Shown here: piece by piece, positions 307 to 24,058 of the stretch
How positions within the stretch are numbered: position 1 is the first letter of the stretch
Layout of the letters: each line of letters begins with the position of its first letter
Source of the DNA: an uncultured Verrucomicrobiota bacterium
Lineage (GTDB): Bacteria; Verrucomicrobiota; Verrucomicrobiia; Limisphaerales; UBA9464
Direction of reading: 5' to 3'
NCBI GenBank assembly: GCA_903907925.1
Contig: CAIVQB010000069.1
Coordinates: forward strand, 1 to 47,267
DNA: 47,267 nucleotides
Position numbers and translations under genes: made by a program
Notes under the pieces: generated by a model
What the model saw: the letters and a program-made list of their open reading frames with translations, nothing else
Told to the model about the DNA's origin: nothing
The model's database searches: none

Positions 307-3300
307 CTACGGTTCAGCCGCCAGTCGATAAAACCGCCCACCGACTTCGACAGAAAGCGCGTACTCGGAATCCGAGATGACCGCCGCTGGATCCGACACG
401 GGCTGCCAAGTCTGAAGATCTATGGAGGATTCAAGGCGCAACACCAAGTTGGAATCCCGGATGAACTTCAGTCGCAACGGGCGATCACCCGAAACCAATC
501 TGGCTTGTAACGACGGAACAGTGGGTGCGGCCGCGCGAACAGTAACAGTTGCTTCACTCGACACACTTCCGGCGCCGTTACTAACGATCACCCGATATCG
601 CCCGGAATCCGAAGAAGAAGGGCTTGCGATCGTGAAAGCAGAATTCGTTGCAGTTAGAATGGCTATGTCGTCGCGATACCACTGAAAGAGAGTGGGACCA
701 CCCGATTGAAATGGCACCGAAAGGACCAGAGGCTCCCGGAATCCGAGATGGGTCTCCAACAACCTGTTGGAAAGTTCAACAAAAAGAACCGGTGGAAGAG
801 TGGCGGCGCGATTCTGGGGAAGAGTCCCCAGCCAAAACCGTCCCAAGGTCCAGATTGAAGGCCGATAGCCAGTGGATCGTGTGTCCCGGAAAGTGATCAA
901 CGCAACACAACTGCCGTCTCCCATTGGCACAATCGGACACGGACTGCTGATCACCTGCTCCGGTTGGATACCGGAGGTTCTCCACTGCACGGTTTCGGTC
1001 CCGTCTGCCTCCATTTGGACGAGCGAGCCAAGGATTCCCGGCTCCGATTCATAACCCACCAGGTAACGACCTTCCGAAAGAGGTGCAAAATCACGGATTG
1101 TCCCCCCTGTCGCCCCGCCTTCGGGATTGCTCAAATGGACTTTGAACCCGTTGTCGGCGTCACCGGTGGGACCCAGCGAGATCAATGGGCCCGCGATGCC
1201 GTCGAACGTGGAGATCGCACCGGCGACGAAGGTACGAAACGGATCCACTGGAACCACGGAATACAGGGTGTTGTTGGCTGTCTGGTCAGAAGGGAGGGGA
1301 GTTCCGTGGTATGCAAAATCCAAACTCCCACTCCTTGAAAAGCGGGCCAGGGAACGTCCCGAGAACATGGGTCCAGAAGCGGGCGAGACCTGCAATTGCC
1401 TGCCCGCGACCAGCAGACCTCCGGCTTCACCGGGCTGAACGGCGAGAATAGAAACGGGTGTCATCGACACGTCTTCCGCTGCGAAAGTTGGATCCCGTTT
1501 GCCACTGGCATCGAGGCGCCGAATCTTTCCAACCTGATCGAGTCCGGAGAGTGCCCCGCCAATGTAGACACCCTCTCCGTCCAACGCCATTGCGCTGATA
1601 CTTGAGTGGCTTAAATTGCCGCCAGAATCGGCCAGAAAACTATCACCGGGATCAAACTGTGAATCGACGGCGCCATTGGACTGAAGGCGAACGATCAGAT
1701 CCCGGGGAGCGCCGCCGGATCGGTTGAACACACCTGCCAAGAACATCCCTCCGTTCGGCAGAAACGTCGCGCAGGTCAGTTGTGTTCCATTCATTCCAAG
1801 CGGAGGCGACCAATCGGGATCGCGACTTCCGTCCGGCCGAAGCATCACCATCCCCGGGGTCAGAAAAGAATCATAGTTGGTGAAGTTCCCATAGACGAAG
1901 AGTCGACCGACCCTGCCATCCGCTCCGAATTGCCCGACCAGACCTGCGATGGGGGTCTCCTGGATGAGACTCGCCGGAATGCGTTCCAATCCTCCAAGGT
2001 GTGAGTTCGGAGCGCCGGCGATACTCCACGAAAACATTGGGTCATTCGCCCCTGAAGCCAAACCAACCACCACACTATCACTCCGTTCGCGTCCGAAGGA
2101 ATTCGAAATCTCGACCCAATAGACTCGGGCGACCTTAAGATTCGAGGGCTGGATTGCAAGTTCCGGCGAACCCGCACCGACGTATCCATCGCCATCCATC
2201 AGCAATTCCCCGTCGCGATACCATCTCCAACTCAATGGTGCGGTACCGATGCCTTCCGCGTGAAGTACTACGGGGGCCACCAAGTTCGTAGTAAACCCAC
2301 TTCTCGGCTGGACGATGAGTTGTGCCGGGTGGGAAATCGCACCCTGCGGCGGCACGATTCGGGTCAAAAATGGAGACCCGCTTCCATCAAATTGCGAAAA
2401 ACCGCCGCCGATCAAAATGCGTCCGTCGGGAAGTTCGATGAACTGTTGAGGGGCATCGTCTGGTCCGGTTCCTGGGTCGAACGCGGGATCCAGGTGCCCG
2501 TCGGGCGTCAGTAACACCACTCGTCGATGTTCCCCTCCGTTCCAATGGGTGAAAGATCCGCCGACCAAAATCCTGCCATCTGAAAGCTCCAGGCCGGTTG
2601 AAATCGAGCCATCCGGTCCGATGCCGGGATCAAATGTGGCATCCACGGTAAGATCCGGATGCAGGCGGGCGATGGAATTCCGCGGCACCCCAGCGACCTG
2701 TGAAAACGTCCCACCAATCAGAAACCGCCGGTCGTGCATGCGAAACAGAGTCGAAATATCGGGGAGTTTACCGACGGCGGCAGTGAGACTCGGGCCACTT
2801 CGGTTGGTTCCGGATCCGTCATACCAATAAAATGCTTTGCCATACGTCCGGCCAAGCTGTCCCCACAGCAAGCATTGCCCTTCACCATTCGACGCGAACC
2901 GCCGAACCAGCGCTTCCGGGGTTCCAACGACCATTCGATCATCGGTGATCAGCGTATCGGCCGCATCGAGCACTCCATCGGACAGGAGTCGTCCGAAAAG
3001 CAATCGATCAACTCCGTAGATCGGTGAATACGTGTTGCCGGCAACCCAGAGACCCGCATCCGGGCTTACTTCGATCTGATGGAGTCCATATCGCTGCCCA
3101 AACGGGTAGGTAACACTCACTCCGGATCGAAAGCTTGGATCCACCGACCCATCCGGATTCAAGCGGGCCAACGAATCAAACCCACTGGTACCGTTAATAA
3201 TGGAAAATCCACCTGCGGCGTATACTTGGATCCCTGAGACCACCAATTGCTCAAGTTCGAGAGATCCCGTGTTACCGAGATCGGTTGGCTCGGTGAGCGT

Positions 3301-4665
3301 TGTGAGTGTTGCAAAATGTTCGAATGATTCACCATCGGCTCCCGACCGCAACAGAGCACTAACCACGGTCGGCCTCGATCCAATCGTGGCGTTGGATCGA
3401 CTTCCTGGCACAATCAGCGCACCGTCCGCGAGATGTGCGAAAGTGCGGACGGGCTCCGATAGCGCTGGATCAATCTGCGCGCCACCGATCCAAGTTCCGT
3501 CGTTTTGGGTTCGGACAAGCCAGCGCGTCAGCAAGCCTCCGTTTGATTGAACGCCGTCTGAAGCCCATAGAATGGTTTCATCTGCGAGCGGAAGTGGCGG
3601 GCATCCGTCCGGCCGTCCGTTGAAGGAGAGGCGGGTCACTTTGCCATTTAAATCAATTTGAAACCCTGTCGAAACAGTCCCTCCACCTGGGGTGTAGACC
3701 TCAACCAATCCCTCAAGGAATCCGTGTGAGTCAAAAGCAAGACCCGTCGGGGCGTGCTCCAAGACAAAATAGCCCCCAGGTGAGAACCGGGGATACGCCA
3801 CGAATTTGCCATTTCGATCCAGGAGAATCAGGTTCGGATCGGTGGATGGCGAAAGGAAATACCCTGATAGCGCAATTCTCCCATCGGGAGCCACGGCAGC
3901 AGTCTTTATTTCGATCAGAAATTGGGCCAGCGAAACCTGGTAGTTCTCATCGAGCGACAAGTCCGCCCGCAGTCGAACCAGATTCGTCAGGGACAATCCA
4001 TTGAACCGATTGAATCCTCCCACCACTAGAACGCTCGCGTCCGGGGTGGGGACCAACTGGTTCAAAATTGCTCCATCGGGAATGTCCGGTTGGTAAGCGG
4101 GATCTCGCAGCCCATCCCCGGACAATAATTTCAACGCGTGTTTGCCGTTGGCCTCGGGACCCAGCGTCTCCAGCACCAAAACTCGACCGTCGGGCCGAAC
4201 CAGAAGTTGCCGGACGCTGCCCGTCGAGGCGATTCCCGCCGGGTATCCAACATCGCGGGAACCGTCGGCGTTCAAGCGGACAATGTGTTGGCCAGCCGGC
4301 GTTCCATTCCAACTACCAAAGTCGCCCCCGACCAAGGCCCGGCCGTCCGGAAGGACAACCACCGTCCGGATCAACCTATCGGGCCCGGTACCGACATCAA
4401 ACGTCGTATCGTTCGAGCCATCCGACCGTAGACGTGCAATCCCATGGGCCTTACGACCGTCCACCCGGGCAAAATCTCCCGCGATGATAACGCGTCCGTC
4501 CGAATAACGATCCATGGCGGTCACCAGGCCATCGGGCCCCTGGGTCGCCGTTAAAGCGCCCACCCGAAACGTCGGATCCACAATCGACGTGGCACCACGG
4601 GCGGCGGGGCAAATCATCGTCGCCAACGTCGCGAGAACCAGACTTAGCCAAAACGGGGAACGCAT
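307..4665 (-). CDS. Secreted delta-60-repeat (DUF5122) beta-propeller protein with Ig-like domains
   Basis: A large exported protein of about 1452 residues. The ATG at 4665 is preferred over an upstream TTG at 4713 because it directly precedes a clean signal peptide (MRSPFWLSLVLATLATMICP, cut near ARG-ATS), although the AAGGAG just before it is very close. Most of the protein is degenerate delta-60 repeats of the type DGRILVGGSF...RLxxDGxxDxxFDPG, roughly fifteen in number, predicted to form beta-propellers. Ig-like modules sit near residues 790-880 (WRWYRDGE) and 1310-1380 (FQWYRDD). The last ~65 residues form a short C-terminal module (LRLESSIDLQTWQPV ... FYRL) of a kind frequent in Verrucomicrobia secreted proteins. 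The ligand is unknown; a surface or extracellular binding role is an inference. Confidence 0.85.
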   Translation of the reverse strand: MRSPFWLSLVLATLATMICPAARGATSIVDPTFRVGALTATQGPDGLVTAMDRYSDGRVIIAGDFARVDGRKAHGIARLRSDGSNDTTFDVGTGPDRLIRTVVVLPDGRALVGGDFGSWNGTPAGQHIVRLNADGSRDVGYPAGIASTGSVRQLLVRPDGRVLVLETLGPEANGKHALKLLSGDGLRDPAYQPDIPDGAILNQLVPTPDASVLVVGGFNRFNGLSLTNLVRLRADLSLDENYQVSLAQFLIEIKTAAVAPDGRIALSGYFLSPSTDPNLILLDRNGKFVAYPRFSPGGYFVLEHAPTGLAFDSHGFLEGLVEVYTPGGGTVSTGFQIDLNGKVTRLSFNGRPDGCPPLPLADETILWASDGVQSNGGLLTRWLVRTQNDGTWIGGAQIDPALSEPVRTFAHLADGALIVPGSRSNATIGSRPTVVSALLRSGADGESFEHFATLTTLTEPTDLGNTGSLELEQLVVSGIQVYAAGGFSIINGTSGFDSLARLNPDGSVDPSFRSGVSVTYPFGQRYGLHQIEVSPDAGLWVAGNTYSPIYGVDRLLFGRLLSDGVLDAADTLITDDRMVVGTPEALVRRFASNGEGQCLLWGQLGRTYGKAFYWYDGSGTNRSGPSLTAAVGKLPDISTLFRMHDRRFLIGGTFSQVAGVPRNSIARLHPDLTVDATFDPGIGPDGSISTGLELSDGRILVGGSFTHWNGGEHRRVVLLTPDGHLDPAFDPGTGPDDAPQQFIELPDGRILIGGGFSQFDGSGSPFLTRIVPPQGAISHPAQLIVQPRSGFTTNLVAPVVLHAEGIGTAPLSWRWYRDGELLMDGDGYVGAGSPELAIQPSNLKVARVYWVEISNSFGRERSDSVVVGLASGANDPMFSWSIAGAPNSHLGGLERIPASLIQETPIAGLVGQFGADGRVGRLFVYGNFTNYDSFLTPGMVMLRPDGSRDPDWSPPLGMNGTQLTCATFLPNGGMFLAGVFNRSGGAPRDLIVRLQSNGAVDSQFDPGDSFLADSGGNLSHSSISAMALDGEGVYIGGALSGLDQVGKIRRLDASGKRDPTFAAEDVSMTPVSILAVQPGEAGGLLVAGRQLQVSPASGPMFSGRSLARFSRSGSLDFAYHGTPLPSDQTANNTLYSVVPVDPFRTFVAGAISTFDGIAGPLISLGPTGDADNGFKVHLSNPEGGATGGTIRDFAPLSEGRYLVGYESEPGILGSLVQMEADGTETVQWRTSGIQPEQVISSPCPIVPMGDGSCVALITFRDTRSTGYRPSIWTLGRFWLGTLPQNRAATLPPVLFVELSNRLLETHLGFREPLVLSVPFQSGGPTLFQWYRDDIAILTATNSAFTIASPSSSDSGRYRVIVSNGAGSVSSEATVTVRAAAPTVPSLQARLVSGDRPLRLKFIRDSNLVLRLESSIDLQTWQPVSDPAAVISDSEYALSVEVGGRFYRLAAEP

Positions 4666-4739
4666 ACTCCTTGGGTGGGGAGCAGCGTGCTCCTGGAGGA
4701 ATGGGGGAATCAAGCGGATCTCGATGGGTGCGCGGCGGA

Positions 4740-4820
4740 GTTGAAGGGTTGAAAAGATGAAGAGTTGAAGAGGGATTTCGGTTCGACTTCAGGGGTACCG
4801 CTTCGAGCGGGACCGGCACC
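4740..4820 (-). repeat. Dispersed intergenic element, copy 2
   Basis: Same element as at 99-180: on the minus strand a hairpin (GGTGCCG near 4820 pairing with CGGTACC near 4796, one G-T pair) followed by TCTTCAAC, TCTTCATC, TTTTCAAC, CCTTCAAC units. It fills the gap between the stop of the NHL protein gene and the start of the delta-60 protein gene. Confidence 0.7.
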
Positions 4821-4835
4821 TTTTGACGGCGCGGG

Positions 4836-5885
4836 TCAAATGCGCTCCAGTTTGAGGGGGTAGGTTTTTCCGGAGGCGTATTGGGCGACGTAGAGGCTGT
4901 CGTCGGGGCCGATCGTGAGGTCGTGGGGATGCAGGAAGATCTCCTCCTGGTGTTTCATTGGTTGAAGCCGATCGTCGGCTCCGTAGATCGGCGATGTCCC
5001 GGCGATGTTGGAGATGACGCGAAGATTGGCGTCCAGTACCGACAGGAATCCACGGCTGTTGCGGTCTGCGGGCCAGTTGTCGGCAAGGTGCGCGACGAAG
5101 TAGTGGCTCTTGTGCCGACGGATTTGACGTGGATTGCCACCGGGCAACGGAACACGGCCGAGCGCCTTTCCTTCGAGGTCGAGGCGCAGGAGGTATTGTT
5201 GATCGCTCATCGCGATGAGCAGTGACGGATTCGAAGTGGCGACATCGAGATCCACCATTCCGCCATGCGGCCCCCAATGCGTGATGCCACCCTCGTTTCC
5301 ACCAAAGATCTTCACAAAGGATCCGTCTGCTTTGTGGCGGGTGATGTAGTCGCGTCCGTAGCCGTCCAGAATGAAGAACCCACCTTCGGGAAGATGCAGC
5401 GTCCACGACGGACGATAGTCGTCTTCCCTGGCGTAGTTTCCGGTTTTCTCAGGCCAACCCCATTCACCGAGCAGCTCACCCGAGGGCGTCGCTTTGAAAA
5501 CCTTGTGGCGTTTCAAGTCGGTGAAATAGAGCACCTCCCGTCCGGCTTCCATCACCAGCGACAGGCCGTGCGCCCCCGGGTACTCGGTTCCCCATTTGTG
5601 AAGCAGACGGCCTTGGGAATTGTAGATGATGAAGTTGTTCTTCGGTTCGTCGGTCAGGAGAATGATGTTCCCGGCGCGGTCACAGACAATCCCGTGGCAG
5701 TTGTCGACCGGTGTCTTCTCGTCCAATTGGCCCCATCCCGGAACGACGCGGTAGCGGAATTCTCCCTGGCCGAGGATCGGTGAGATCGCCTGAGCACGGC
5801 CGACAAACGGAGCCGCGACGGCGGCCGCCGTTGCGCGACCGAGAAACGAACGGCGGGTCAGATTGCGCGGGCTTGTCGGTGGCAT
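4836..5885 (-). CDS. Tat-exported NHL-repeat / six-bladed beta-propeller protein
   Basis: 349 residues starting at ATG 5885. The N-terminus has a twin-arginine signal (LTRRSFLGRA, residues 9-18) followed by an alanine-rich hydrophobic stretch, so the protein is probably folded in the cytoplasm and exported by Tat. The rest shows NHL/peptidylglycine-lyase-like propeller repeats: CDRAGNIILLTDEP, NSQGRLLHKWGTEYPGAHGL, TPSGELLGEWGWP, HLPEGGFFILDGYGRDYI and PHDLTIGPDDSLYVAQYASG. In PVC bacteria such proteins are common but rarely characterised; an enzymatic role is not shown. It is 22 bases downstream of the hydrolase gene and probably co-transcribed with it. Confidence 0.85.
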   Translation of the reverse strand: MPPTSPRNLTRRSFLGRATAAAVAAPFVGRAQAISPILGQGEFRYRVVPGWGQLDEKTPVDNCHGIVCDRAGNIILLTDEPKNNFIIYNSQGRLLHKWGTEYPGAHGLSLVMEAGREVLYFTDLKRHKVFKATPSGELLGEWGWPEKTGNYAREDDYRPSWTLHLPEGGFFILDGYGRDYITRHKADGSFVKIFGGNEGGITHWGPHGGMVDLDVATSNPSLLIAMSDQQYLLRLDLEGKALGRVPLPGGNPRQIRRHKSHYFVAHLADNWPADRNSRGFLSVLDANLRVISNIAGTSPIYGADDRLQPMKHQEEIFLHPHDLTIGPDDSLYVAQYASGKTYPLKLERI

Positions 5886-11395: not shown

Positions 11396-12169
11396 TTATT
11401 CTAACGTGATGTGCTGGTGGCCATGTTCGACACCGGAGGCATGCTGCCAGGCGTGAATGACATGATCCACGATAGCATCGACACCGACGCCGTGGCGGAC
11501 TTGGGCGAATAGAAACGGTCCACCGCCTCGCATTTTCTTGGAATCGCGGGCCATCACATCGAGATCGGCACCCACCGCCACTGCGAGGTCGGTCTTGTTG
11601 ATCACCAGGAGGTCGCTCTGAGTGATTCCGGGGCCGCCCTTGCGCGGGATCTTGTCACCGCCCGCCACGTCGATGACCTGGATCGTGTAGTCGGCCAGTT
11701 CACGGCTGAAACAGGCGGCGAGATTGTCGCCGCCCGACTCCAGCAGGAGCAGGTCGGGATGGAACTGGTGGTGTAGATCCTCCAGGGCCTGCAGATTGGC
11801 CGAGATGTCTTCGCGAATGGCGGCATGTGGACATCCGCCGGTTTCCACTGCGCGGATTCGTTCACTGACGAGCGCCTGATTTCGGACCAGAAACTCACCG
11901 TCTTCGCGGGTGAAAATGTCGTTGGTGACCGCGGCGACACTGACCCGGTTCTTTAGCTTCAGACACAACTGAAGCATCAGCGCGGTCTTGCCACTTCCCA
12001 CGGGGCCACCGACGCCGATGGTGAAGGCGCGTCGTTTGAAATCGCGGTCCAGCGGCAACTCGCGTTCGTCGAAATGCCCGGGATGATCCAAGTGCTCGTG
12101 AGTATGGCCATGATCGTTACCGTGATCATGACTGTGGGAATGGGAGTGGGAATGTGTGGGGGAGCCCAT
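11396..12169 (-). CDS. ureG: Urease accessory GTPase UreG with histidine-rich N-terminus
   Basis: 257 residues from ATG 12169; the frame is open further upstream into ureF but the family begins here. UreG is the SIMIBI GTPase that, with UreF and UreD, drives nickel insertion and lysine carbamylation in urease. Seen: P-loop GPVGSGKT (55-62), [14 protein letters not shown], the metal-binding CPH motif (113-115), ESGGDNL (144-150) and NKTDL (191-195). The first 32 residues contain 12 histidines in HS/HD/HE repeats. No ureE gene is present in the window, so this tail may take over nickel storage or delivery (inference). It is the last gene of the urea module, 34 bases after ureF. Confidence 0.95.
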
Positions 12170-12203
12170 GGTTGGAGTTGGAAAGTGGGTGACTCGAATG
12201 TGG

Positions 12204-12920
12204 TCAACTTTGGAACAACCGGGAATAAAGACGATCCTGCCCGCCCTGCCACAGATCGTGAAGTGGTTGGGTTTGGACAGCATCCTCGGGACCGAGCTCG
12301 GCGCAACTTTGCAGCACTGATTCGCCCTGTTCGGAAAGTTGGAATTGAAGCGACTGCGCTTCCATCGGGCCGAGGATTCCCAGGCGAACTCCGGCCGCCA
12401 GCAGGCCTCGAAGGTGGCCGAACAAAAACAATCGCTGGGATCGGCGGCGTTCCAGGCCAAGCACTCCAAGGATCGCCCCGAACCACGGACAGAAATGCCC
12501 CAGGGCGTCCGCCGGTCTTCCCTCGTTCAGGCGGCTCAGACGGGTTTCACCGAACGCACGGCGCGCGGCAGCCCACAGCGCCCGTCCCTGCAGCCGGCTG
12601 GCCCGATTGGCGACGTGGTTGGTGGTGAAGGCGTCGCACCAGGCGTCCAATTCATGGACTCGCCCGGGCTCGGCGTGGGCGGCCGTCACCCACGGCAAGG
12701 CCGCGTGTCCGGCCTGATCCAGGCTGGCGGTCAGATAGCCCATCCATTCAACCCGATTGCGAATCGCCCCATGTTGCCAGGCAGCCTCGACGCCGCCGGA
12801 ATGCGCGAATCCACCGGTAGGAAACGCCGAATCAATCCACTGCCACACCCACCAGTCCACCGCTTCAGTTCCAGATGGCCTCTCAATTCCGATCTCCAAC
12901 TCTTGAAACGCCTTGGTCAC
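12204..12920 (-). CDS. ureF: Urease accessory protein UreF
   Basis: 238 residues with a GTG start at 12920, three bases after the ureC stop. UreF forms the UreD-UreF-UreG activation complex and gates GTPase activity. The family signature is clear: [23 protein letters not shown] near the N-terminus (usual DSALPIGGFSHSYGLE), [24 protein letters not shown] in the middle, and the all-helical C-terminal half. Length is normal. The tight spacing to ureC and ureG shows co-transcription. Confidence 0.93.
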
Positions 12921-12923
12921 GGG

Positions 12924-14639
12924 TCAGAACAGATAATATCGCTGGGCCAATGGCAACACCTTGGCGGGCTCGCAGGTCAACAACACGCCGTCCGCCCGGA
13001 CTTCATAAGTCTCGGGATCCACGGTGATCTTCGGCATGGCGTTGTTCCATTTCAGATCCTTCTTGCCGATGGACCGGCAGCCCTTGACCGCCTCAATCTG
13101 CTTGGTCAGGCCGTACTTTGCCGCCACGCCCTGTTGCTGGCACAAGCGGCTCACGAAAGCGACCGAGGAAGTGCCGGTGGCGCGACCAAAGGCCCCGAAC
13201 ATGGGCCTCATCAACACTGGTTGGGGTGTGGGAATGCTGGCGTTGGGATCGCCCATTTGCGCCCAGGCAATGATCCCGCCCTTCACCACCATCTCCGGCT
13301 TGGCTCCGAAAAAGGCAGGACGCCAGAGGACAAGATCCGCGAGTTTCCCAACCTCAATCGAACCGATCACATGGGCCATCCCGTGCGCGAGCGCCGGATT
13401 GATGGTGTACTTCGACAGGTAACGTTTGATCCGGACGTTGTCGTTCGACCCCTTGTCCTCCGGCAATCGTCCGCGTTGACGCTTCATCTTGTCCGCCGTC
13501 TGCCAGGTGCGGGTGATGACTTCGCCGATGCGTCCCATCGCTTGGGAATCGGAGCTCATCATGCTGATGGCGCCGAGATCGTGCAGGATATCCTCCGCGG
13601 CGATCGTTTCGCCGCGAATCCGGCTTTCCGCGAACGCCACGTCCTCGGGAAGATTAGGGTCCAGATGATGACACACCATCAGCATGTCGAGGTGTTCATC
13701 GATGGTGTTGACGGTGAACGGGCGGGTCGGATTGGTGGAACTCGGCAAGACATTCGGTTCACCGCAGATGCGGATGATGTCGGGCGCGTGGCCTCCGCCG
13801 GCACCCTCGGAATGATAGGTATGAATGGTGCGCCCCTTGAAGGCGGCGATGGTGCCTTCGACGAAGGTGGATTCGTTCAGCGTATCGGTGTGGATGGTCA
13901 CCTGCACGTCGTGCCGATCGGCCATCGACAGGCAGCAATCGATTGCCGCCGGGGTGGTGCCCCAATCCTCGTGCAATTTGAGTCCGATGGCGCCGGCCTT
14001 GATCTGTTCCGGAAGCCCGGCTGGCAAAGCCGTGTTGCCCTTTCCGGTGAATCCGAAGTTCAACGGCAGGCTGTCAACCGCCTGCATCATCGCTTTGAAA
14101 TAAAACGGGGCCGGCGTGCAGGTCGTCGCGCAGGTTCCAACGGCAGGACCCGTTCCACCGCCCACCATGGTGGTCAAACCCGCGGCAATCGCCTCATGCG
14201 CCTGCTGCGGGCAGATGAAATGGATGTGAGTATCGAGACCGCCCGCGGTGACGATCAATCCTTCGCCGGCAATCACCTCGGTGGTGACGCCGATGATCAT
14301 GCCCCGCGTGACACCCGCCATGATGTCGGGGTTCCCCGCCTTGCCGATGGCAGCGATCCGGCCGTTCTTGATGCCGAGGTCCGCCTTGTAGATGCCGGTA
14401 TAATCCAGCACCAAGGCATTGGTGATAACGCAGTCGAGCGCGTCCTTTGCGCCGACGCCGGCCGCCTGGCCCATGCCTTCGCGAATCACCTTTCCGCCGC
14501 CGAATTTGCATTCGTCACCGTAGACCGTGAAGTCCTTTTCAATTTCCAGTTCCAGCGAGGTGTCGCCCAGCCGAATCCGGTCGCCCGTGGTCGGGCCGAA
14601 CATGTCGGCGTAGTGGGACCGCTTCATCGAATGCGCCAT
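12924..14639 (-). CDS. ureC: Urease subunit alpha (catalytic)
   Basis: 571 residues from ATG 14639, the usual UreC length and start ([20 protein letters not shown]). UreC holds the dinuclear nickel site that hydrolyses urea to ammonia and carbamate. All key residues are present: His138 and His140 (HIH), carbamylated Lys221 (GLKLHEDWG), His250, His276, Asp364, and the mobile-flap pair Cys323-His324 (MVCHH). These are a constant four residues beyond the Klebsiella numbering. The gene therefore encodes an apparently intact catalytic subunit, in contrast to the frameshift in the upstream ureAB. Confidence 0.97.
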
Positions 14640-14676: not shown

Positions 14677-15428
14677 TCAGGTTGTTCCAAAGCCACGCTT
14701 CCGGGCGCGCGCCCCGACGGCCTTGCGTCCCGCAGCCGTCACCTTGCCACTGGCCAGATTGTTCCCGCCGCGAATGATCCGTTTTCCAGCGATCTCCACG
14801 AGGCGGACCGTCCGGGTTTCACCGGGTTCAAACCGCACCGCCGTTCCTGCCGGAATATCGAGCCGACGTCCGTAGGCGAGGGTCCGATCGAACTTGAGGC
14901 CGGGATTGGTCTCAACGAAATGGTAGTGGCTGCCCCCTGGATGGGGCGATCTCCCCGATTGCTCACTTGAAGCTCGATGGCCTTTCGCCCGGCGTTCATC
15001 TCAATCTCGCCGTCCTGAATGGTGCAGGTCCCGGGAACCGGCTCTACGGCGGTGGGACCGAAACGTGAAAGTTCGGGAATCGGCAGAAAGCTTCCGTGCA
15101 ACGCCAGGGCGAGGTTTCCGTTCTCGGAGGCGATCGGATGATGAACCGTCACCAGTTTCGATCCATCGGGAAAGGTCCCCTCCACCTGCACGTCGTGGAT
15201 CATTTCGGGAACGCCGGCCATGACCTGGTTCCGTCCGAGCAACTGGCGACCCATATTCATCAATTCGGCGACACTTCGGCCGTCGCGAATGAGCTCCAAA
15301 AGTACCGTCGCGATCAAGGCCACGGCCTCGGGATGGTTGAGCCGCAATCCACGCGCGAGCCGTTTTTGCGCGAGGAATCCGGCATTGTGCAGGACGAGCT
15401 TGTCGAGTTCCCGGGGTGAAAGGTGCAT
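14677..15428 (-). CDS. ureAB: Fused urease gamma-beta subunit (UreAB), interrupted by a one-base frameshift
   Basis: Residues 1-100 are a complete UreA ([11 protein letters not shown] ... [20 protein letters not shown]) joined to a UreB domain, as in other fused UreAB proteins. The beta domain is normal to NRGDRPIQ, then the frame breaks at a run of five G (14933-14937 on this strand) and, if read on, ends at 14739 in unrelated sequence. Adding one base restores [17 protein letters not shown], then [19 protein letters not shown] and a full C-terminus ending at 14677, leaving a normal 37-base gap to ureC. A homopolymer deletion in the assembly is the simplest cause; real inactivation would abolish urease assembly. 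Confidence 0.88.
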
Positions 15429-15654: not shown

Positions 15655-16488
15655 TTACCATTTCCGTTTCCATGGGTTGTCACCGAGGAGCCCGGTGAGT
15701 CCGTCCAGATGACGTTGAAGTTCCCGGCGGACTGATTCCACGGAGTCACCGGCGACACGCAGCAACGCTCCTCCCGTAATCCCACTGGCACTGGCAACGC
15801 ACGGCGCGGATTTCGCGACGGGTCGACGGCCGATGTCCTCCAAAAGCCCGGCGGACTGAGTGGCGAGGCCCGGTCCGATCATCAGAAGCATGGCGAGGCA
15901 ATTCCAGCGTCCCATGCGACCCGAGGAAACGAGGAGACCGGATTCCGAATCGAGCCGGACGGCGTCCACCACCCGGCGTTTTCCATCGACCCGGATTTCG
16001 TTGCGGCTTTCGTAACTTCGAAACGCCCAATGTTCGCCGCAGTCGGATCGGCCTGAGCTCAGCCAGTCCACCAGGACGAGATTGGCCGACCCGTTCAGAT
16101 CAAATTCCTGACGCTGGCTGTAGGAGGAATCCGCGAACGCTTGAAGCACCTCCGGAGCGAACACCAGGCAGCCGCCGTCCGCCACCGTCGCATGCGTCTG
16201 GTGTCCGCACGCACGTCGAGCGGGATTTCGATACACCTTGGTGGACGCCTGGGTTCCGACGAAGCAGGTGGCCCCTGCCCCGACTTCGAGGTCGAGGCGG
16301 GTCTCGTCCCCGGCGACCATACCGCCCCCGAAACTACTGACGCAGGCCCAAACACTCGGGCCGCGGGAAATCGGAGTGAGGAGCTTGAGGGGCTCAGTGG
16401 AAAAGGCAGAAACGACCGCGGATTGGCCCGCCACGCATTGAACCGTCAGCTCGGCGGAACCCCGGCGTGCGGCCACTCCACCGGACAT
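15655..16488 (-). CDS. ureD: Urease accessory protein UreD
   Basis: About 277 residues from ATG 16488 (an in-frame ATG at 16506 is possible). The first is favoured because its ATG overlaps the stop of the preceding gene as TGATG, a sign of translational coupling. UreD is the scaffold that binds apo-urease and recruits UreF-UreG. Seen: GSAELTVQ ... STEPLKLLTP, the central FVGTQASTKVYRN (usual TQASTKVYR), LVFAPEVLQAFADSSYSQRQEFDL and LVLVDWLSSGR. All are family landmarks. A 226-base gap with a REP-like repeat separates it from ureAB. Confidence 0.9.
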   Translation of the reverse strand: MSGGVAARRGSAELTVQCVAGQSAVVSAFSTEPLKLLTPISRGPSVWACVSSFGGGMVAGDETRLDLEVGAGATCFVGTQASTKVYRNPARRACGHQTHATVADGGCLVFAPEVLQAFADSSYSQRQEFDLNGSANLVLVDWLSSGRSDCGEHWAFRSYESRNEIRVDGKRRVVDAVRLDSESGLLVSSGRMGRWNCLAMLLMIGPGLATQSAGLLEDIGRRPVAKSAPCVASASGITGGALLRVAGDSVESVRRELQRHLDGLTGLLGDNPWKRKW

Positions 16489-16787
16489 CAACGGCCCAAG
16501 CCCCATAGCACTCCCGCGGAACACCCGACGATCAGTCCGAACGATTCCATCCAGCACTGACGGCGGCCCCGGACGATGAACCGGCCGGTTGCCCAGAGCG
16601 CGACACCCATTCCCAACAGGATCACGGCAAGGGTCGTCAGGTGATCCGGGCTTGTAACCCAATGCCCGAGGTTGGGACTCGCGAAATCGTGTCCGGGATG
16701 CGCTTGAAGCCGCGACGCCGGCATCATCGTCACCGTCAGGATTGCGATCCGGGCGGCGATTAAAGCGGGCGGGGACTTTCGCATCAT
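16488..16787 (-). CDS. Small membrane protein with HPGHD motif, between urtE and ureD
   Basis: 99 residues with an N-terminal signal or anchor, then AHPGHD at the mature N-terminus and two hydrophobic segments (TTLAVILLGMGVALWATGRF and FGLIVGCSAGVLWGL). The AHPGH start recalls HupE/UreJ nickel-permease proteins, but the rest is far too short for that family. Its ATG overlaps the urtE stop by four bases (ATGA, 16784-16787) and its stop overlaps the ureD start (TGATG), so it is translated in lockstep with the transporter and urease genes. A role in nickel or urea handling is inferred only from position and the histidine motif. Confidence 0.75.
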   Translation of the reverse strand: MMRKSPPALIAARIAILTVTMMPASRLQAHPGHDFASPNLGHWVTSPDHLTTLAVILLGMGVALWATGRFIVRGRRQCWMESFGLIVGCSAGVLWGLGR

Positions 16788-17479
16788 ACGGTCAAATGGC
16801 GTCGGACAATATCGTTGTTGAGATTCGCAATGGGTCCGCTGGCGACCACCGCGCCGCGATCCATGATATAGAAGAAGTCACCGATCGACAGGCAGAAATC
16901 GAGATATTGTTCGACCAGGAGGATGCTAATCTTTCCCTCGCTCTTGATCTTCAGCAGGGCGTCGCCGATGAGATCGATGATGTTCGGCTGAATGCCTTCC
17001 GTGGGTTCGTCGAGAATGAGGACCTTGGGATTGGTCAGGAGCGCGCGGGCGATGGCCAGCTGTTGCTGCTGGCCACCCGACAACACTCCGCCCTTTCGTT
17101 GGAGGAATTCCTTGAGGATGGGGAACAGTTCGAGAACGCGGTCCATCTGTTCGGCAGCGCGGGACCCATGCACCACGACACTAATCTTCAAATTCTCCCA
17201 GACCGTGAGGTGCGGGAAGATGTCACGTCCCTGCGGCACATAGCCAATGCCCCGACGGGCACGGGCATCGGGCGTGAGTGTCGTGACGTCTTCGCCGGCC
17301 AGGGTCACCTTGCCGACGTCGGTCTTCACCAACCCGACGATCGACTTCAAGGTGGTCGTTTTCCCGACGCCGTTCCGTCCCATCAGGCAGATGAGACTCT
17401 TCTCCGGAACATTCAGATCAACTCCGCGCAGGATCCGGGAGCCGTCGTAGGAAACGGCGATATTGGAAAGGGTCAGCAT
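16784..17479 (-). CDS. urtE: Urea ABC transporter ATP-binding protein UrtE
   Basis: 231 residues, the second ATPase of the UrtABCDE high-affinity urea importer (a branched-chain-amino-acid-type ABC system). Walker A is GRNGVGKT (34-41), the signature LSGGQ (133-137), Walker B LILDEPT (154-160) followed by EGIQPNI, which is typical of UrtE rather than LivF. It is 64 bases downstream of urtD and overlaps the next gene by four bases. Confidence 0.93.
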   Translation of the reverse strand: MLTLSNIAVSYDGSRILRGVDLNVPEKSLICLMGRNGVGKTTTLKSIVGLVKTDVGKVTLAGEDVTTLTPDARARRGIGYVPQGRDIFPHLTVWENLKISVVVHGSRAAEQMDRVLELFPILKEFLQRKGGVLSGGQQQQLAIARALLTNPKVLILDEPTEGIQPNIIDLIGDALLKIKSEGKISILLVEQYLDFCLSIGDFFYIMDRGAVVASGPIANLNNDIVRRHLTV

Positions 17480-17543: not shown

Positions 17544-18314
17544 TCACGTCTTGTCCTTTTTCTTCCGGCCGAGATAGACCTCGATCACCCGTTCGTCGTT
17601 CTGAACCTGATCCACGCTGCCCTCGCAGAGAACGGTCCCTTGGTGAAGAACGGTCACCTTGCGACCCAATTGACGGACAAAGGCCATGTCATGTTCGATG
17701 ACCACGACGCTGTGTTTTCCCTCCAGGCTGAGGAGGAGTTCACCCGTCTTTGCGGTTTCCTCGTCGCTCATTCCGGCGGCGGGTTCATCGACGAGCAGGA
17801 GTTTGGGATCCTGGGCCAGGAGCATGCCGATCTCCAGCCATTGCTTTTGGCCGTGGCTTAAGGCACCGGCCTTCCAATTCGATTTCTCCGCGAGCCCCAC
17901 GGTGGTCAAAACGTTGTGGATCCGCTCGGTTTCGGAGGGTGTGATCCGGTGACACAACGCGGCAAACACACCGCGATCCCCCTTCAACGACAGCAGGATG
18001 TTTTGAAAAACGGAATGACCCACATAGACGGAGGGCGTCTGAAACTTCCGTGAGATCCCGAGACGGTTGATCTGGTACTCGTTCAGGCGGGTCAGGTCGG
18101 TGTTTTTCTCGTACTCCACCCGACCGGTGTCCGGTCGTGTCCGCCCAGTGATGATGTCCATCATCGTGCTTTTGCCGGCACCATTCGGACCGATGATGAT
18201 CCGGAGCTCGCCCACATCCATGTAGAAGTTGAGCGCCGAGATGGCCTTGAAACCATCGAACGTCTTGTTCACTCCCTCAAGAGTGAGGATGAATTCCTTA
18301 TGGAGTGGGTTCAT
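17544..18314 (-). CDS. urtD: Urea ABC transporter ATP-binding protein UrtD
   Basis: 256 residues. Walker A GPNGAGKST (42-50), the Q-loop region ISRKFQTPSVYVGHSVFQNI, signature LSHGQKQWLEIGM and Walker B LLLVDEPAAGMSDEET fit UrtD; the LSHGQKQWLEIGM form distinguishes it from LivG. It forms the heterodimeric ATPase with UrtE on the inner face of the membrane. It lies six bases after urtC. The C-terminal tail is lysine-rich. Confidence 0.93.
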   Translation of the reverse strand: MNPLHKEFILTLEGVNKTFDGFKAISALNFYMDVGELRIIIGPNGAGKSTMMDIITGRTRPDTGRVEYEKNTDLTRLNEYQINRLGISRKFQTPSVYVGHSVFQNILLSLKGDRGVFAALCHRITPSETERIHNVLTTVGLAEKSNWKAGALSHGQKQWLEIGMLLAQDPKLLLVDEPAAGMSDEETAKTGELLLSLEGKHSVVVIEHDMAFVRQLGRKVTVLHQGTVLCEGSVDQVQNDERVIEVYLGRKKKDKT

Positions 18315-18320
18315 CGTGGT

Positions 18321-19469
18321 TCAAAGACCGCCTTTTTCCGCCTCAACCTCGGCCACCGCGACTGGAGCGGGATCTTTCGAGGTCCGGTTCCATCGTTGAT
18401 ACAATCCGCGCAATTGTCCCGGAATACCGACCAGTCCGCGGGGCATGAACACGGTGACCAGGACGAACAAAACACCGAGGAAGATCAGCCAGAGATCCGG
18501 GTACGCCCGGGTGGCCCAACTCTTGAGGGCGTTGACTCCAAAAGCTCCGAGGATCGGGCCGATCAGGGTTCCGCGCCCCCCGACGGCGACCCACACCACC
18601 GCCTCAAGCGACTTTTCGGTCCCCATTTCACTGGGGTTGATGATGCCCACCTGCGGGACGTAAAGGACGCCACCGATGGATGCGATCAGGGAACACAGGA
18701 CAAAGACGAACAGCTTGTAGTGGGCGGCGGCGTATCCGCTGAACAGCACCCGGTTTTCGCTATCCCGAATGGCTTGTTGGATGAGGCCGAACTTGGTCCG
18801 ACTCAGCCAGCGACAGCCCATGAAAATCGCGACGAGAGTCACGGCCGTGACGATGTACAATCCGCGCTGAGTACCCGGAGTCCGCAAATTCTGGCCAAGG
18901 ATGAACTTAAAATCGGTAAACCCGTTGTTCCCGCCGAGCAGGAGGCTATTTCGGAAAAACAACAGGCAGGCTCCGTAGGTCAACGCCTGGGTCAGGATCG
19001 AAAAATAAACTCCCCGGATTCGGGAGCGGAACGCCAGAAATCCGAACACGGTCGCCAGCACTCCCGGAAGCAATGCGGCCATCAACAGGGCGAACGGAAA
19101 ACTGGAAAACGGCTGCCAGAACGGGGGCAGTTTGCTCCAGCCGAGGAAGACAAGAAAATCCGGAATCGGTTGATGATACTGGCCCAGATCCCCGATCATC
19201 CGCATCAGGTACATGCCCATCATGTAACCGCCGAGGCTGAAAAACAGCGCCTGCCCCAGGCTCAACAGTCCCGTGTAGCCCCAAAGCACATCGACGCTGA
19301 TCGCGAGAATCGCGTAGCAAAGGTACTTTCCATAGAGGTTGATGGTGAAGTCGCTGACGTGGAGCGCTTCCGGGAGCGGGAGCGCATTCAATGCCGGCAG
19401 CAGGACGATCAGGACGAAGGCCGCCGCGATCGTCAACCACGTCTCCAGACGCTTGGATTCAGGTCGCAT
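18321..19469 (-). CDS. urtC: Urea ABC transporter permease UrtC
   Basis: 382 residues from ATG 19469, four bases after the urtB stop; a GTG at 19511 would overlap urtB and is less likely. Multi-pass membrane protein with the LivM-type core, including VLWGYTGLLSLGQALFFSLGGYMMGMYLM and the C-terminal GGRGTLIGPILGAFGVN, which contacts the ATPases. The segment YHQPIPDFLVFLGWSKLPPFWQPF is typical of UrtC. It pairs with UrtB to form the transmembrane channel for urea. Confidence 0.93.
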   Translation of the reverse strand: MRPESKRLETWLTIAAAFVLIVLLPALNALPLPEALHVSDFTINLYGKYLCYAILAISVDVLWGYTGLLSLGQALFFSLGGYMMGMYLMRMIGDLGQYHQPIPDFLVFLGWSKLPPFWQPFSSFPFALLMAALLPGVLATVFGFLAFRSRIRGVYFSILTQALTYGACLLFFRNSLLLGGNNGFTDFKFILGQNLRTPGTQRGLYIVTAVTLVAIFMGCRWLSRTKFGLIQQAIRDSENRVLFSGYAAAHYKLFVFVLCSLIASIGGVLYVPQVGIINPSEMGTEKSLEAVVWVAVGGRGTLIGPILGAFGVNALKSWATRAYPDLWLIFLGVLFVLVTVFMPRGLVGIPGQLRGLYQRWNRTSKDPAPVAVAEVEAEKGGL

Positions 19470-19473
19470 GGGT

Positions 19474-21261
19474 TCAATCAAGGCTGCGGCTGCGGATTGA
19501 GAACAACCCACCCGGCCGCCACTGCAGGAAGAGGATGATGGAGATCAGGACGACGATTTTTCCCGTGACCGGTGATCCAGTCGTCTGCTGCAGGATCTGG
19601 TCGGCGGTGCCGATCCCGATGGCGGCGCAAACCGTTCCCACGATGCTTCCGACGCCACCCACCACGACAGTCATGAAACTGTCGACGATGTAGCTCTGGC
19701 CCAGGCTCGGTCCGACATTACCAATCTGCGACAGGAACGCCCCCGCCAGGCCGGCCAGACCCGACCCGAAGGCGAAGGTCAGAACGTTGACCCGATTGGT
19801 TCGGACGCCAATGCATGAGGCCATGTCGCGGTTCTGCATCACCGCGCGGATCAACAGGCCGAGGGAAGTTCGCGTGAGCAGCAGCCAGGTTCCGATGACG
19901 ATCAGCACGGCAAACCCGATGACGAACACGCGATTGTAGCCGAACGAGACATCATTGATGTCGAAGTGTCCGACCAGCCCAGTGGGGGATCCGACCTGAA
20001 CGTTGTTCGCGCCAAAAACCATGCGGAACAACTGCTGCATGACCAGCGACACGCCCCAGGTCGCGAGGAGCGACTCGAGCGGGCGCCGGTACAGAAACCG
20101 GATGACAAGCCGTTCGATCACCAGTCCCGCCAGCGCCGCCATCAAAAAACTCAGGGGAATGGCGAAGAGGAAATAGCTTTCGTAGAGGCTTCCAGTGGCA
20201 TTGAGGCCCGGGAGATGAAGTCCGAAGGCGATGGGTTTTCCGCCAAAACTGAACGGAAGCGTGATCGAAAAACCAAATCCGGTGCCGAAGAGATTCTGCA
20301 CCACATATGTTGTATAGGCGCCGATGGCGATCATTTCACCGTGGGCCATGTTGATGATGCCCATCAATCCGAAGGTGATGGCGAGGCCGAGGGCGACGAC
20401 CAACAGGATCGATCCGAGGCTGAGCCCGCGGAAGAACGTTCCCACCAAGTTCACATTGTTGATGTGGTTATCGATTCCGTGGATGGATTCCGCGAGCACC
20501 CGACGAATCTCGGGCGAAAGCCCCTCCCGGGCCGAAACCCGTTTGAGCAGGTCCAGACTTCCGATCGACCGCAGGCGGCCCAATTGTTCAATCGCCGCCT
20601 TCAGAACAGTTGGATCGGGATCACCCAACTGCAGCAGCGCGATGGATTCCAGGATGGCCTTTTTCACATCCGGATCGTTCTCCAGCGGGAGGCGTTCCTG
20701 AAGAATGACTATATTCAGCGGCTTCTGGGAATTCCCCAGCTTGAGAATCGCTGTTTTCCGGGCGTCAGGAAGCGGGTCGGCGAGCGCCATGGCATCGAGC
20801 GCCAACTGCAGCACCGTTCGAAGGGCCGCGTCGGTCTCCGCCGTAGTGATGTCCGTGGTGGCGAATCGGAGGGTTTTCCCCGAGGCGTCCGCCAGGAAGG
20901 CACCGGTGTCGATCCGGGCCGCACGGGATTTCCCATCGGCGTCAGTCTCGTCCTCAATCAATGCCGGGATGCGCACGCCGCCGTCGCCGGTGTAGAGAAG
21001 GATTCGATCCTTGGGCCAGGCGGACAGGATTTCGCGGACAACCTTGGAACCGGTCAAGGCCAGCTCACGGATCTCGCGCTTTTGATCGGCTTCCTCCGCC
21101 ACGATGGCGAGGGCCAGACGCTTTCGGATTACCGCCTCGGCCGCGGGTGGCTCGGCTGCGGTGGCGGCGAAGGAGGTCAGGCGGGTGAGTGTGATCGCCG
21201 CAAAAACCACAGCCACCCACAAGCCCAGGGAAGCGTTCAACCGGCGGGGGAGAAGGGACAT
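19474..21261 (-). CDS. urtB: Urea ABC transporter permease UrtB
   Basis: 595 residues from ATG 21261 (a start at 21318 lies inside an intercistronic hairpin and is rejected). A signal or first membrane segment is followed by a soluble ~230-residue domain (EEADQKREIRELALTGS ... REGLSPEIRRVLAESI), usual for UrtB, and then the LivH-type permease: LGLAITFGLMGIINMAHGEMIAIGAYTTYV, RPLESLLATWGVSLVMQQ, VRTNRVNVLTFAFGSGLAGLAGA and VVVGGVGSIVGTV. It partners UrtC. A 182-base gap with a strong hairpin separates it from urtA. Confidence 0.94.
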   Translation of the reverse strand: MSLLPRRLNASLGLWVAVVFAAITLTRLTSFAATAAEPPAAEAVIRKRLALAIVAEEADQKREIRELALTGSKVVREILSAWPKDRILLYTGDGGVRIPALIEDETDADGKSRAARIDTGAFLADASGKTLRFATTDITTAETDAALRTVLQLALDAMALADPLPDARKTAILKLGNSQKPLNIVILQERLPLENDPDVKKAILESIALLQLGDPDPTVLKAAIEQLGRLRSIGSLDLLKRVSAREGLSPEIRRVLAESIHGIDNHINNVNLVGTFFRGLSLGSILLVVALGLAITFGLMGIINMAHGEMIAIGAYTTYVVQNLFGTGFGFSITLPFSFGGKPIAFGLHLPGLNATGSLYESYFLFAIPLSFLMAALAGLVIERLVIRFLYRRPLESLLATWGVSLVMQQLFRMVFGANNVQVGSPTGLVGHFDINDVSFGYNRVFVIGFAVLIVIGTWLLLTRTSLGLLIRAVMQNRDMASCIGVRTNRVNVLTFAFGSGLAGLAGAFLSQIGNVGPSLGQSYIVDSFMTVVVGGVGSIVGTVCAAIGIGTADQILQQTTGSPVTGKIVVLISIILFLQWRPGGLFSIRSRSLD

Positions 21262-21290
21262 TGGGAAATCATTAACGACCGACAAGAGGT

Positions 21291-21326
21291 TCAGCGGAGT
21301 GGAGGCACACAACTCCACTCCGCTGA
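21291..21326. promoter_or_regulatory. Perfect 13-bp inverted repeat between urtA and urtB
   Basis: Arms TCAGCGGAGTGGA (21291-21303) and TCCACTCCGCTGA (21314-21326) are perfectly complementary around a 10-base loop. On the transcribed strand no T-run follows, so it is not a standard terminator. Placed directly after a binding-protein gene and before permease genes, it may protect the abundant urtA message or reduce readthrough, as with malE-malF type hairpins. Confidence 0.75.
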
Positions 21327-21443: not shown

Positions 21444-22730
21444 CTACTTTCCAGCGGCGAGCTTCTCGTCCAGACCCTTCAGAATGAACGGCTCACCGGC
21501 GACGTCCTTGAATTCCTTGAGGATCTTGAACTGGCCGTTGGCCTTGGTCTCGCCGATGTAGACGTTCTTCACCGTGTGGTGATTCGCCTGCATGGTGGTC
21601 TTGCCGGCCGGTCCCTTGAAAGAGATGGAACCCGATTCCAGGGCAGTGCGGACCGCATCCACACCGATGGTGCCGGCCTTCTCGACCGCCGCCTTCCAGA
21701 GGTAGACGCCGTCATAGGAGAGCACCATCGGGCTGTCGACGGCGCGCTTTTCCTTCACCACTCCGGGATAGGATTCGGTCTTCAACCACGCATCCCAGCG
21801 GCCAATGAAGCTCTTGTTTTCCGGGGTGTTGATCGACATGAAGTAAGTCCAGCAGCCGAGTTCACCGACGAGATCCTTGGTGGGGAGCGCGCGGAGTTCG
21901 TCCTCGGCGAGACTGAACGAAACCACCGGACAATCGGCGGCACTGAGGCCGGCGGCGGCGATTTCCTTGAACAACGGGACGTTCGAGTCGCCGTTGACGG
22001 TGTTCAACACGCAGGCGTCACCGCTGGCGGCGAACTGTTTGATCTCCGCCACGATCTGCTGGTAGTCGGTGTGGGAGAACGGCGTGTATTTACCCGCCGA
22101 GATCACCTTGCCGTCGGCGTCCTTGCGGAAGCCACCGCCGATGTTCTCGACCGGAATGCCGTGGAGCAGAAGGTACTTGTAGAGGATCAGATTGGTGGTC
22201 TGCGGATAGACGTAGTCCGTGCCGATCAGGTAGAATTTCTTCTTCCCCATCTTGAGCAGGTAATCCACCGCCGGCGTGGCCTGCTGGTTCACGGCTTCGG
22301 CGGTGTAGAAGATGTTCTTCGACAGCTCTTCACCCTCGTACTGGACGGGGTAGAAGAGGAGACCGTTGTCCTTTTCGAACACCGGGAGCACCGACTTGCG
22401 GCTGACCGAGGTCCAGCAGCCAAAGACGACAGCGACCTTGTCCTGTTCGAGCAACTGCTTCGCCTTCTCGGCGAACAGCGGCCAGTTCGAGGCACCGTCC
22501 ACGATCACCGGCTCGATGGTGTAGGTTTTGCCGTCGGCCTTGATGCCGCCGGCGGCGTTGATTTCGTCGAAAGCGAACAACAGCGTATCGCGAAGGGAGG
22601 TTTCGCTGATCGCCATGGTGCCGCTCAGGGAGTGCAGGATGCCCACTTTGACCGTTTCGGCAGTGGCCGTACCGAAGGCAATCATCGCCGCAGCGGCGGT
22701 GCCCAGGAGGTTGCAGGGACTGAATTTCAT
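21444..22730 (-). CDS. urtA: Urea ABC transporter substrate-binding protein UrtA
   Basis: 428 residues with a signal peptide (1-24, cut at ATA-ETVKV). The family start [17 protein letters not shown], then [44 protein letters not shown] and the C-terminal [22 protein letters not shown] are UrtA landmarks that separate it from Liv-type amino-acid binders. It binds urea in the periplasm and delivers it to UrtBC. It follows the porin gene and precedes the urtB hairpin. Confidence 0.96.
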
Positions 22731-22791: not shown

Positions 22792-24058
22792 TCAGAAGAG
22801 GTACGACACACCGACGCCCAGGATGACGCGGTCCGCATGGGTTCCGAAGGCGCCGGGGAGCGACGAATGGTCGAACCGGACCTCGGGCTGGATCTTGACG
22901 TTGGGGACCGGCTTGATGTTGAGCGTGACGGCAATGCTGGCGAGGTCGTTGCCGGTGTTGGCCTTGAACGCGAGCGGATCTGCCGAGGCATCCACGCCGC
23001 GGGCGTCGCTCAGGAACTCACCACGTACCGCGAGACCGAACATGCTGTTGAAGCTGTACGACGCGAAACCGCCGGTGGACCACACCGGAGCCGTGCCGCC
23101 CGGGGTTTCGAACCAGAAATAATCCAGTTCCGTGCCGAGGTGGAATTTCTCGGTGACGCTCCATCCACCGAGCAGTGAAGCCACGTGGATCCCGCTGGAG
23201 GGACCGCCTTCGCGACCGGTCGAGCCGACGAAGCTCAGCCAGGTGGAGGAGGACGGCTTGATCCCGATCGCGCCCCATGAAGGTTTTGGCCTGGTTGTTG
23301 TCAACCGGACCTGCATACAGGCCGTTCTGAACCCGGGCCTTGACGTCCAGCCAATCAGTGAAGCTGTATCCAAGCTGAACGCCAGCGGCCGGGCCATTGC
23401 CGGTGTAGAACCACTGGTAGCCTTGGGAGAAGTTGTCGTTCGCGGCACCGCCGTCACCAGACTCGTAGTTCAGGAGGGAGATCAGTTCGCCGACCTTGAT
23501 GTTCAGGCCGGTTCCGACCGGGGCATTCAGTTCGACGTACGCTTCGCGAATGCTGCTGAATCCGACGATTCCGGATCCGGAATTCACAATGGGGGCGTCC
23601 TGACCGAACATCAGCGAAACGCGATAGCCGGCACTCCAATTGTCACCGCTGTGTTCAGCGGGAGGACTGGCGAGAGTGAGCTTGACCTTGTTCAGCGAGA
23701 AATTGCCGGACTTGCGGTTCCAGAGATAACCGGGCGAGACCTGGCCCGGCGGCGTGCTGGTATCATAGAAGTAGGATCCGGTGACGAAACCCTCGATCTT
23801 GGTCCCGGCGATGCGGGTCAAGAGAGGCGCGGAGGCCTTGGTGTCGTCGGGCAGGATTCCTTCGGCCTTGGCCACACTTTCCAGCGTGTCGAGGCGCTTC
23901 TTCAGTTCCTTGTTCTCCTGCTCCAGCTTGTCGAGCTTGGTTCCATCATCCGCCCTCAGTGCGAAGCCTGCCGTCTGAGTCAGGGCGACTCCGAGGGACA
24001 GACCGAGGCTGGCGAGCTGGCGGCGGTGTTTGGATTTCAGCGGTGTGAGTTGGTTCAT
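22792..24058 (-). CDS. Outer-membrane beta-barrel porin (BBP2/OmpL-like), interrupted by a one-base frameshift
   Basis: Starts at ATG 24058 with a signal peptide, then a short coiled coil (DKLEQENKELKKRLDTLE) and a beta-barrel of alternating aromatic and hydrophobic strands (VTGSYFYDTSTP, YQWFYTGNGPAAGVQLGYSF). The frame breaks after AKTFMG at a run of G (minus-strand 23276-23273); removing one G continues as AIGIKPSSSTWLSFVGSTG and runs to a proper outer-membrane end, GVGVSYLF, with the C-terminal Phe used for BAM recognition. Without the shift the product would be a truncated barrel ending near 23018. The gene leads the urea operon, so it is probably the outer-membrane entry route for urea (inference from position). 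Confidence 0.82.

Follow-up and report, generated by a model that had tools for sequence, protein, structure and literature searches.

Bifunctional urease gamma/beta proteins (NF009671, PRK13192) are known from the Helicobacter-type UreA fusion, which is represented in the PDB by the entries 1e9y, 6qsu and 3qga. The locus analyzed here shares this arrangement, with gamma and beta encoded in one gene that is followed by ureC, and the pieces of ureAB also match solved fused subunits. It departs from the NF009671 fusion in that the frame is broken at about beta position 34, whereas the other 34 genomes in which a UreB was found carry it unbroken. Recently inactivated urease genes occur in bacteria, and the present case resembles them in that one structural gene is disabled by a single change; it differs in that, besides a broken porin gene, no clear decay is seen elsewhere in the cluster. 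Single-base errors, many of them at homopolymers, have in turn been described for long-read assemblies (PMC8442456). The breaks reported below resemble such errors in that each shifts an otherwise conserved gene by one base and lies at or next to a G/C run, but at the ureB site the relatives compared have no homopolymer. Whether it is a draft error or a recent loss, the event would be an ordinary one.

The window, i.e., the whole stretch of DNA that was analyzed (47,267 nucleotides), corresponds to the entire contig C69 of a draft genome of 4,606,554 bases in 148 contigs, 96% complete. The best named matches of its ureA are found in metagenome assemblies, the first labelled "bacterium" and the following ones mostly Verrucomicrobia, so that the draft probably represents an uncultured bacterium of this phylum. 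A urea-use cluster is encoded on the minus strand from about 24.1 to 11.4 kb, in the order porin, urtA-B-C-D-E, ureD, fused ureAB, ureC, ureF and ureG (Table 1).

Table 1. Features of the urea-use cluster and of broken genes elsewhere in the draft (positions are those of the window unless another locus is named)
Feature	Position	Strand	Basis and remarks
ureG	11396-12169	minus	open frame; TIGR00101, 277.8 bits; start codon picked by us
ureF	12204-12920	minus	open frame; PF01730, E 4.7e-25
ureC, urease alpha subunit	12924-14639	minus	full-length open frame; NF009686 2-569 of 569, 1019.7 bits; alignment to solved ureases
Remaining UreB, 86 codons plus stop, in the second frame	14677-14937	minus	PF00699 35-98, E 8.7e-30; NF009671 146-229
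Tail of the ureA frame past the break, out of frame and closing at a stop	14739-14936	minus	translation
Five-base G run at the frame break	14933-14937	minus	sequence (CCCCC on plus, GGGGG on the coding minus strand); two PF00699 matches join at 14937
In-frame part of ureAB: entire gamma subunit and first third of beta, 163 aa	14940-15428	minus	PF00547, E 1.7e-46; PF00699 1-32; NF009671 1-143
ureD (ureH) reading frame	15655-16662	minus	PF01774, E 8.7e-50 in 15658-16560; start codon not fixed
urtE, urea ABC transporter ATPase	16784-17479	minus	TIGR03410, above cut-off
urtD, urea ABC transporter ATPase	17544-18314	minus	TIGR03411, above cut-off
urtC, permease	18321-19511	minus	TIGR03408, above cut-off
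urtB, permease	19474-21318	minus	TIGR03409, above cut-off
urtA, probable substrate-binding protein	21444-22730	minus	TIGR03407, 475.3 bits, below the cut-off of 492.75
OmpL-like beta-barrel porin beside urtA, broken	22792-24058	minus	break at ~23272 in GGGG; PF07642 (339 positions) matched in two frames, 2-172 and 179-324
HTTM-domain protein gene, broken	L188 (G000:C103) ~3116-5031		one-base break at ~4142 in GGGG; homology, Pfam
DUF1549/DUF1553 protein gene, broken	L174 (G000:C48) ~12140-14481		break at ~13654 in CCCCC; homology

The ureA frame runs from an ATG at 15428 to a stop at 14739-14741 (229 codons); residues 1-164 comprise urease gamma and the start of beta, and the final 65 are out of frame. 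A second frame, open from 14937 and in the -1 frame relative to the ureA start, encodes 86 UreB residues and ends at a stop at 14677-14679, 37 bases upstream of the ureC ATG at 14639. Correspondingly, the Urease_beta profile PF00699 is split into two matches one frame apart, positions 1-33 at 14937-15035 (E 7.4e-7) and 34-98 at 14743-14937 (E 3.8e-29), and such a two-piece, two-frame UreB match is well beyond chance. The two pieces together match NF009671 over positions 1-143 and 146-229 of 231, in the gamma-then-beta order of that fusion, with either piece alone below the cut-off of 243 bits; there is no single uninterrupted reading frame, as the frame shifts at 14937. The original prediction of a one-base frame break at 14933-14937, in a gamma-beta fusion otherwise intact and with the UreB remainder reaching a stop 37 bases ahead of ureC, is thus confirmed. 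As read, the product lacks two thirds of UreB. Family searches of the 4.6-Mb draft recovered this one UreB and one UreC, and no second copy of either. A backup urease that would make the break harmless was rejected on the basis of these searches, which covered a draft 96% complete, and a strain with this single UreB and single UreC would be urease-negative if the sequence is taken literally.

UreB was matched in 35 of the 96 genomes searched, this genome among them. In each of the other 34, a single match without frame change or internal stop spans profile positions 1 to 97 or 98, except in G089 (8-97). Among the other same-genus genomes, UreB is present in six of seven, the seventh being 54% complete. 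For a comparison of the site itself, the Gly-Ser-His motif was located in 90 of 110 related loci, which gave 86 distinct contexts; the 20 loci outside the pattern were left out. The residue ahead of Gly-Ser-His is Val in 80 contexts and Ile in the remaining six, and across the codons Gln-Val/Ile-Gly the longest G run is two in 64 contexts, three in 21 and four in one, with no run of at least five in any of the 86. Judged by these contexts, the five-G run is peculiar to this sequence and more likely a consequence of the base loss than its cause. An ancestral run of six Gs is unlikely, since it would give Gly where all 86 contexts have Val or Ile. On this point the original prediction did not hold: the missing base had been taken for one G of a G run, and relatives, which were expected to show whether six Gs are the normal state, do not carry them in any context compared.

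The sequence past the break shows no clear sign of decay. None of the 29 near-invariant positions in the UreB part past the break is changed, and the corresponding counts elsewhere (ureC 1/321, gamma part 1/76, ureF 0/48 and urtA 0/158) match those of other genomes, so that over the 13 pieces tested, near-invariant positions are conserved at roughly the relatives' rate. Odd residues just ahead of the break were considered as a trace of relaxed constraint and rejected: one of 76 near-invariant positions differs there, which is rank 15 of 43. Compared with the same-genus genome G007, the UreB part past the break has a dN of 0.093 and a dS of 1.27 (dN/dS ~0.07), and the two parts of the porin have dN values of 0.081 and 0.105 with dS values of 0.89 and 0.75; dS values above about 1 are rough, and some are saturated. 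Against seven relatives, the dN of the UreB part is 0.093-0.327, compared with 0.012-0.359 among the relatives themselves. In two genes, the top dN of this genome lies just above the relatives' range (ureG, 0.178 versus 0.150; urtD, 0.184 versus 0.164), and across the eight pieces tested dN is inside or barely over that range. As constraint is retained past the break, the break would be either recent or not real.

Three further frame breaks were found in the draft. In the porin gene beside urtA, the only further lesion near ureAB, reading frames of eight relatives cover both parts. The part of the HTTM gene past its break has open frames of 770-882 codons in six other genomes (29 searched, its own included), and one reading frame of G007 covers both parts. 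For the DUF1549/DUF1553 gene, one relative spans the break, with parts 37 and 45% identical. In addition, a hemW-like radical-SAM gene has an in-frame TAG at 17710-17712 of L192 (G000:C117), between aligned stretches and with one relative in the alignment; the part past the stop scores 190.5 bits against TIGR00539, below the cut-off of 205.4, and the TAG falls within its radical-SAM cysteine motif. All four frame breaks, including that in ureB, are located at four or five consecutive Gs or Cs; among 130,630 sampled positions, 4.6% show such a run within the surrounding 11 bases. This association was noted post hoc, and the break sites are located to within a few bases.

These counts come from a genome sample consisting of the window and 54 other stretches (916,409 bases); homology to related genomes covered 263,587 bases of this sample. 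With coding-filtered query genes, the homology scan returned six rows in this genome, corresponding to four sites (ureB, porin, HTTM and DUF1549/1553). Window rows at 17279 and 22764, which represent antisense matches or a gene junction, and a row at L176, an out-of-frame match, were rejected and are absent from that scan. The control covered 524,452 bases of relatives (G005, 172,890; G007, 173,478; G003 and others, 85,077; eight named loci, 93,007) and returned 14 frame changes, none of which was accepted as clean when judged by eye. Four were reciprocal matches to the genes broken in the window, eight were paralogue matches (26-32% identity) and two were rows at L036, both well supported (up to 66% identity) and at one place that contains a gap of 10 Ns. 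A looser homology scan gave one apparent break in G005 (L135, ~12070).

Depending on how these relatives' cases are counted, frame breaks amount to 4 in 263,587 covered bases here and 0 to 2 in 524,452 in relatives, with P from 0.013 to 0.10. With four against none, P is 0.013, or 0.037 if ureB, the lead, is excluded; counting either L135 or L036 gives 0.046 (0.11 without ureB), and counting both gives 0.10 (0.21 without ureB). The excess over relatives is thus suggestive and fragile, as it hinges on the counting of L135 and L036. The apparent one-base break of L135 (G005:C41), in a same-genus genome, is found near a CAT repeat and away from G/C runs. Two of the four breaks lie within the one 12.7-kb urea cluster; at the genome's own rate, the probability of a second break there is 0.096, and this clustering is not significant and tells little. 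Regarding in-frame stops, five were listed here, of which hemW alone was accepted, and eight in relatives (2, 1, 3 and 2), of which none was; on visual inspection, the others were discarded as being weak, antisense, located before a start codon or reciprocal.

A coding-potential scan of the 55 stretches (916,409 bases) produced 69 raw events. Judged by eye from the joins, three of them were intragenic (ureB, porin and HTTM), and the remaining ones appeared to be gene junctions or spurious. The scan detected 128 of 300 simulated deletions and missed the L174 break. With more sensitive settings (89 to 113 of 120 detected), 275,809 bases yielded between 56 and 149 raw events, too many to be assessed one by one. 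Applied to 370,730 bases of relatives, the coding-potential scan gave seven raw events, none of them read as intragenic (joins were inspected for six of the seven).

Assembly error and recent loss, the two alternatives originally proposed, are the ones that the evidence leaves to be weighed. We consider that the one-base break is probably a consensus error of the draft assembly, one among scattered single-base breaks at or beside G/C runs. Draft error is favored because one-base breaks at G/C runs occur in unrelated genes, probably in excess over relatives, without clear decay nearby; the number of such breaks moves the balance toward sequence error without settling it. The split at a single base, with the remaining urease genes open, also speaks for it, as does the unbroken UreB match in all 34 other genomes that have one. 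The organism would then have a working fused UreAB together with an ordinary urease and urea transporter, and the frame break would have been introduced by the assembly consensus; the draft would be of metagenome origin, and its reads would fail to uphold the break. Several points count against a draft error: in the relatives compared, the ureB site carries no run, which makes a plain run-length error an unnatural account of it; genuine indels likewise favor runs; and two of four breaks fall in the urea cluster, the pattern expected of selective loss. A genuine and very recent inactivation, in which the sampled population would have lost urease through a one-base deletion, and perhaps urea use generally, is possible, if somewhat doubtful. 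It takes the sequence as it stands, with its break and its single UreB and UreC, and would fit the second lesion at ~23272, the absence of a run in the 86 contexts of relatives and the slightly raised dN of ureG and urtD. The breaks of like kind in unrelated genes, the near-invariant positions kept in all 13 pieces at about the relatives' rate and the dN values of the eight pieces within or barely above range argue against it, and the P of 0.096 for clustering weakens the case for a cluster-wide selective loss. If the break is true, it would capture urease loss at its first step. The main lesson is one of caution, since the draft taken literally describes a lineage unable to hydrolyse urea, while its preserved sequence and the genomes of its same-genus relatives point to an ability to do so.

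Other explanations are much weaker. That the gene is an old pseudogene, as the broken frame alone might indicate, is very unlikely in view of the constraint that is intact on either side of the break and in ureC; its rejection in the original prediction is upheld by the unchanged UreB positions past the break and by the low dN/dS against one same-genus genome. A full UreAB could still arise if ribosomes were programmed to shift to the -1 frame at the G run, or if transcription slipped there; urease output would then be set by the frameshift. This would agree with a beta part in the -1 frame and with the apparent constraint on both parts. Programmed frameshifting follows a tandem slippery heptamer rule, and no such heptamer is formed by the in-frame codons CAG GGG GCA; for slippage, five bases make a short run. 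None of the 34 other UreB genomes has the arrangement, which led us to reject a conserved programmed frameshift; frameshifting of any sort is just as improbable as the old pseudogene. Least credible is a phase-variable (contingency) switch of urease through changes in run length: the break does sit at a G run, but contingency runs are usually longer than five, this run is just five, and a run of that length recurs in none of the relatives' contexts.

Apart from the broken genes, the cluster appears to encode an ordinary nickel urease accompanied by an ordinary urea ABC transporter. A full-length ureC with complete catalytic motifs is present together with ureD, ureF and ureG, as in nickel urease operons. 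The UreC motifs, which we take to be those for nickel binding and catalysis, are unaltered in alignments to two plant urease chains, in agreement with the earlier statement that the active-site residues are kept. The urtB product has 614 aa, with the best UrtB profile stretch at residues 377-611, and thus carries a long N-terminal extension. The N-terminus of UreG (11396-12169, minus strand) is His-rich; such a stretch is known from some nickel-binding UreG proteins.
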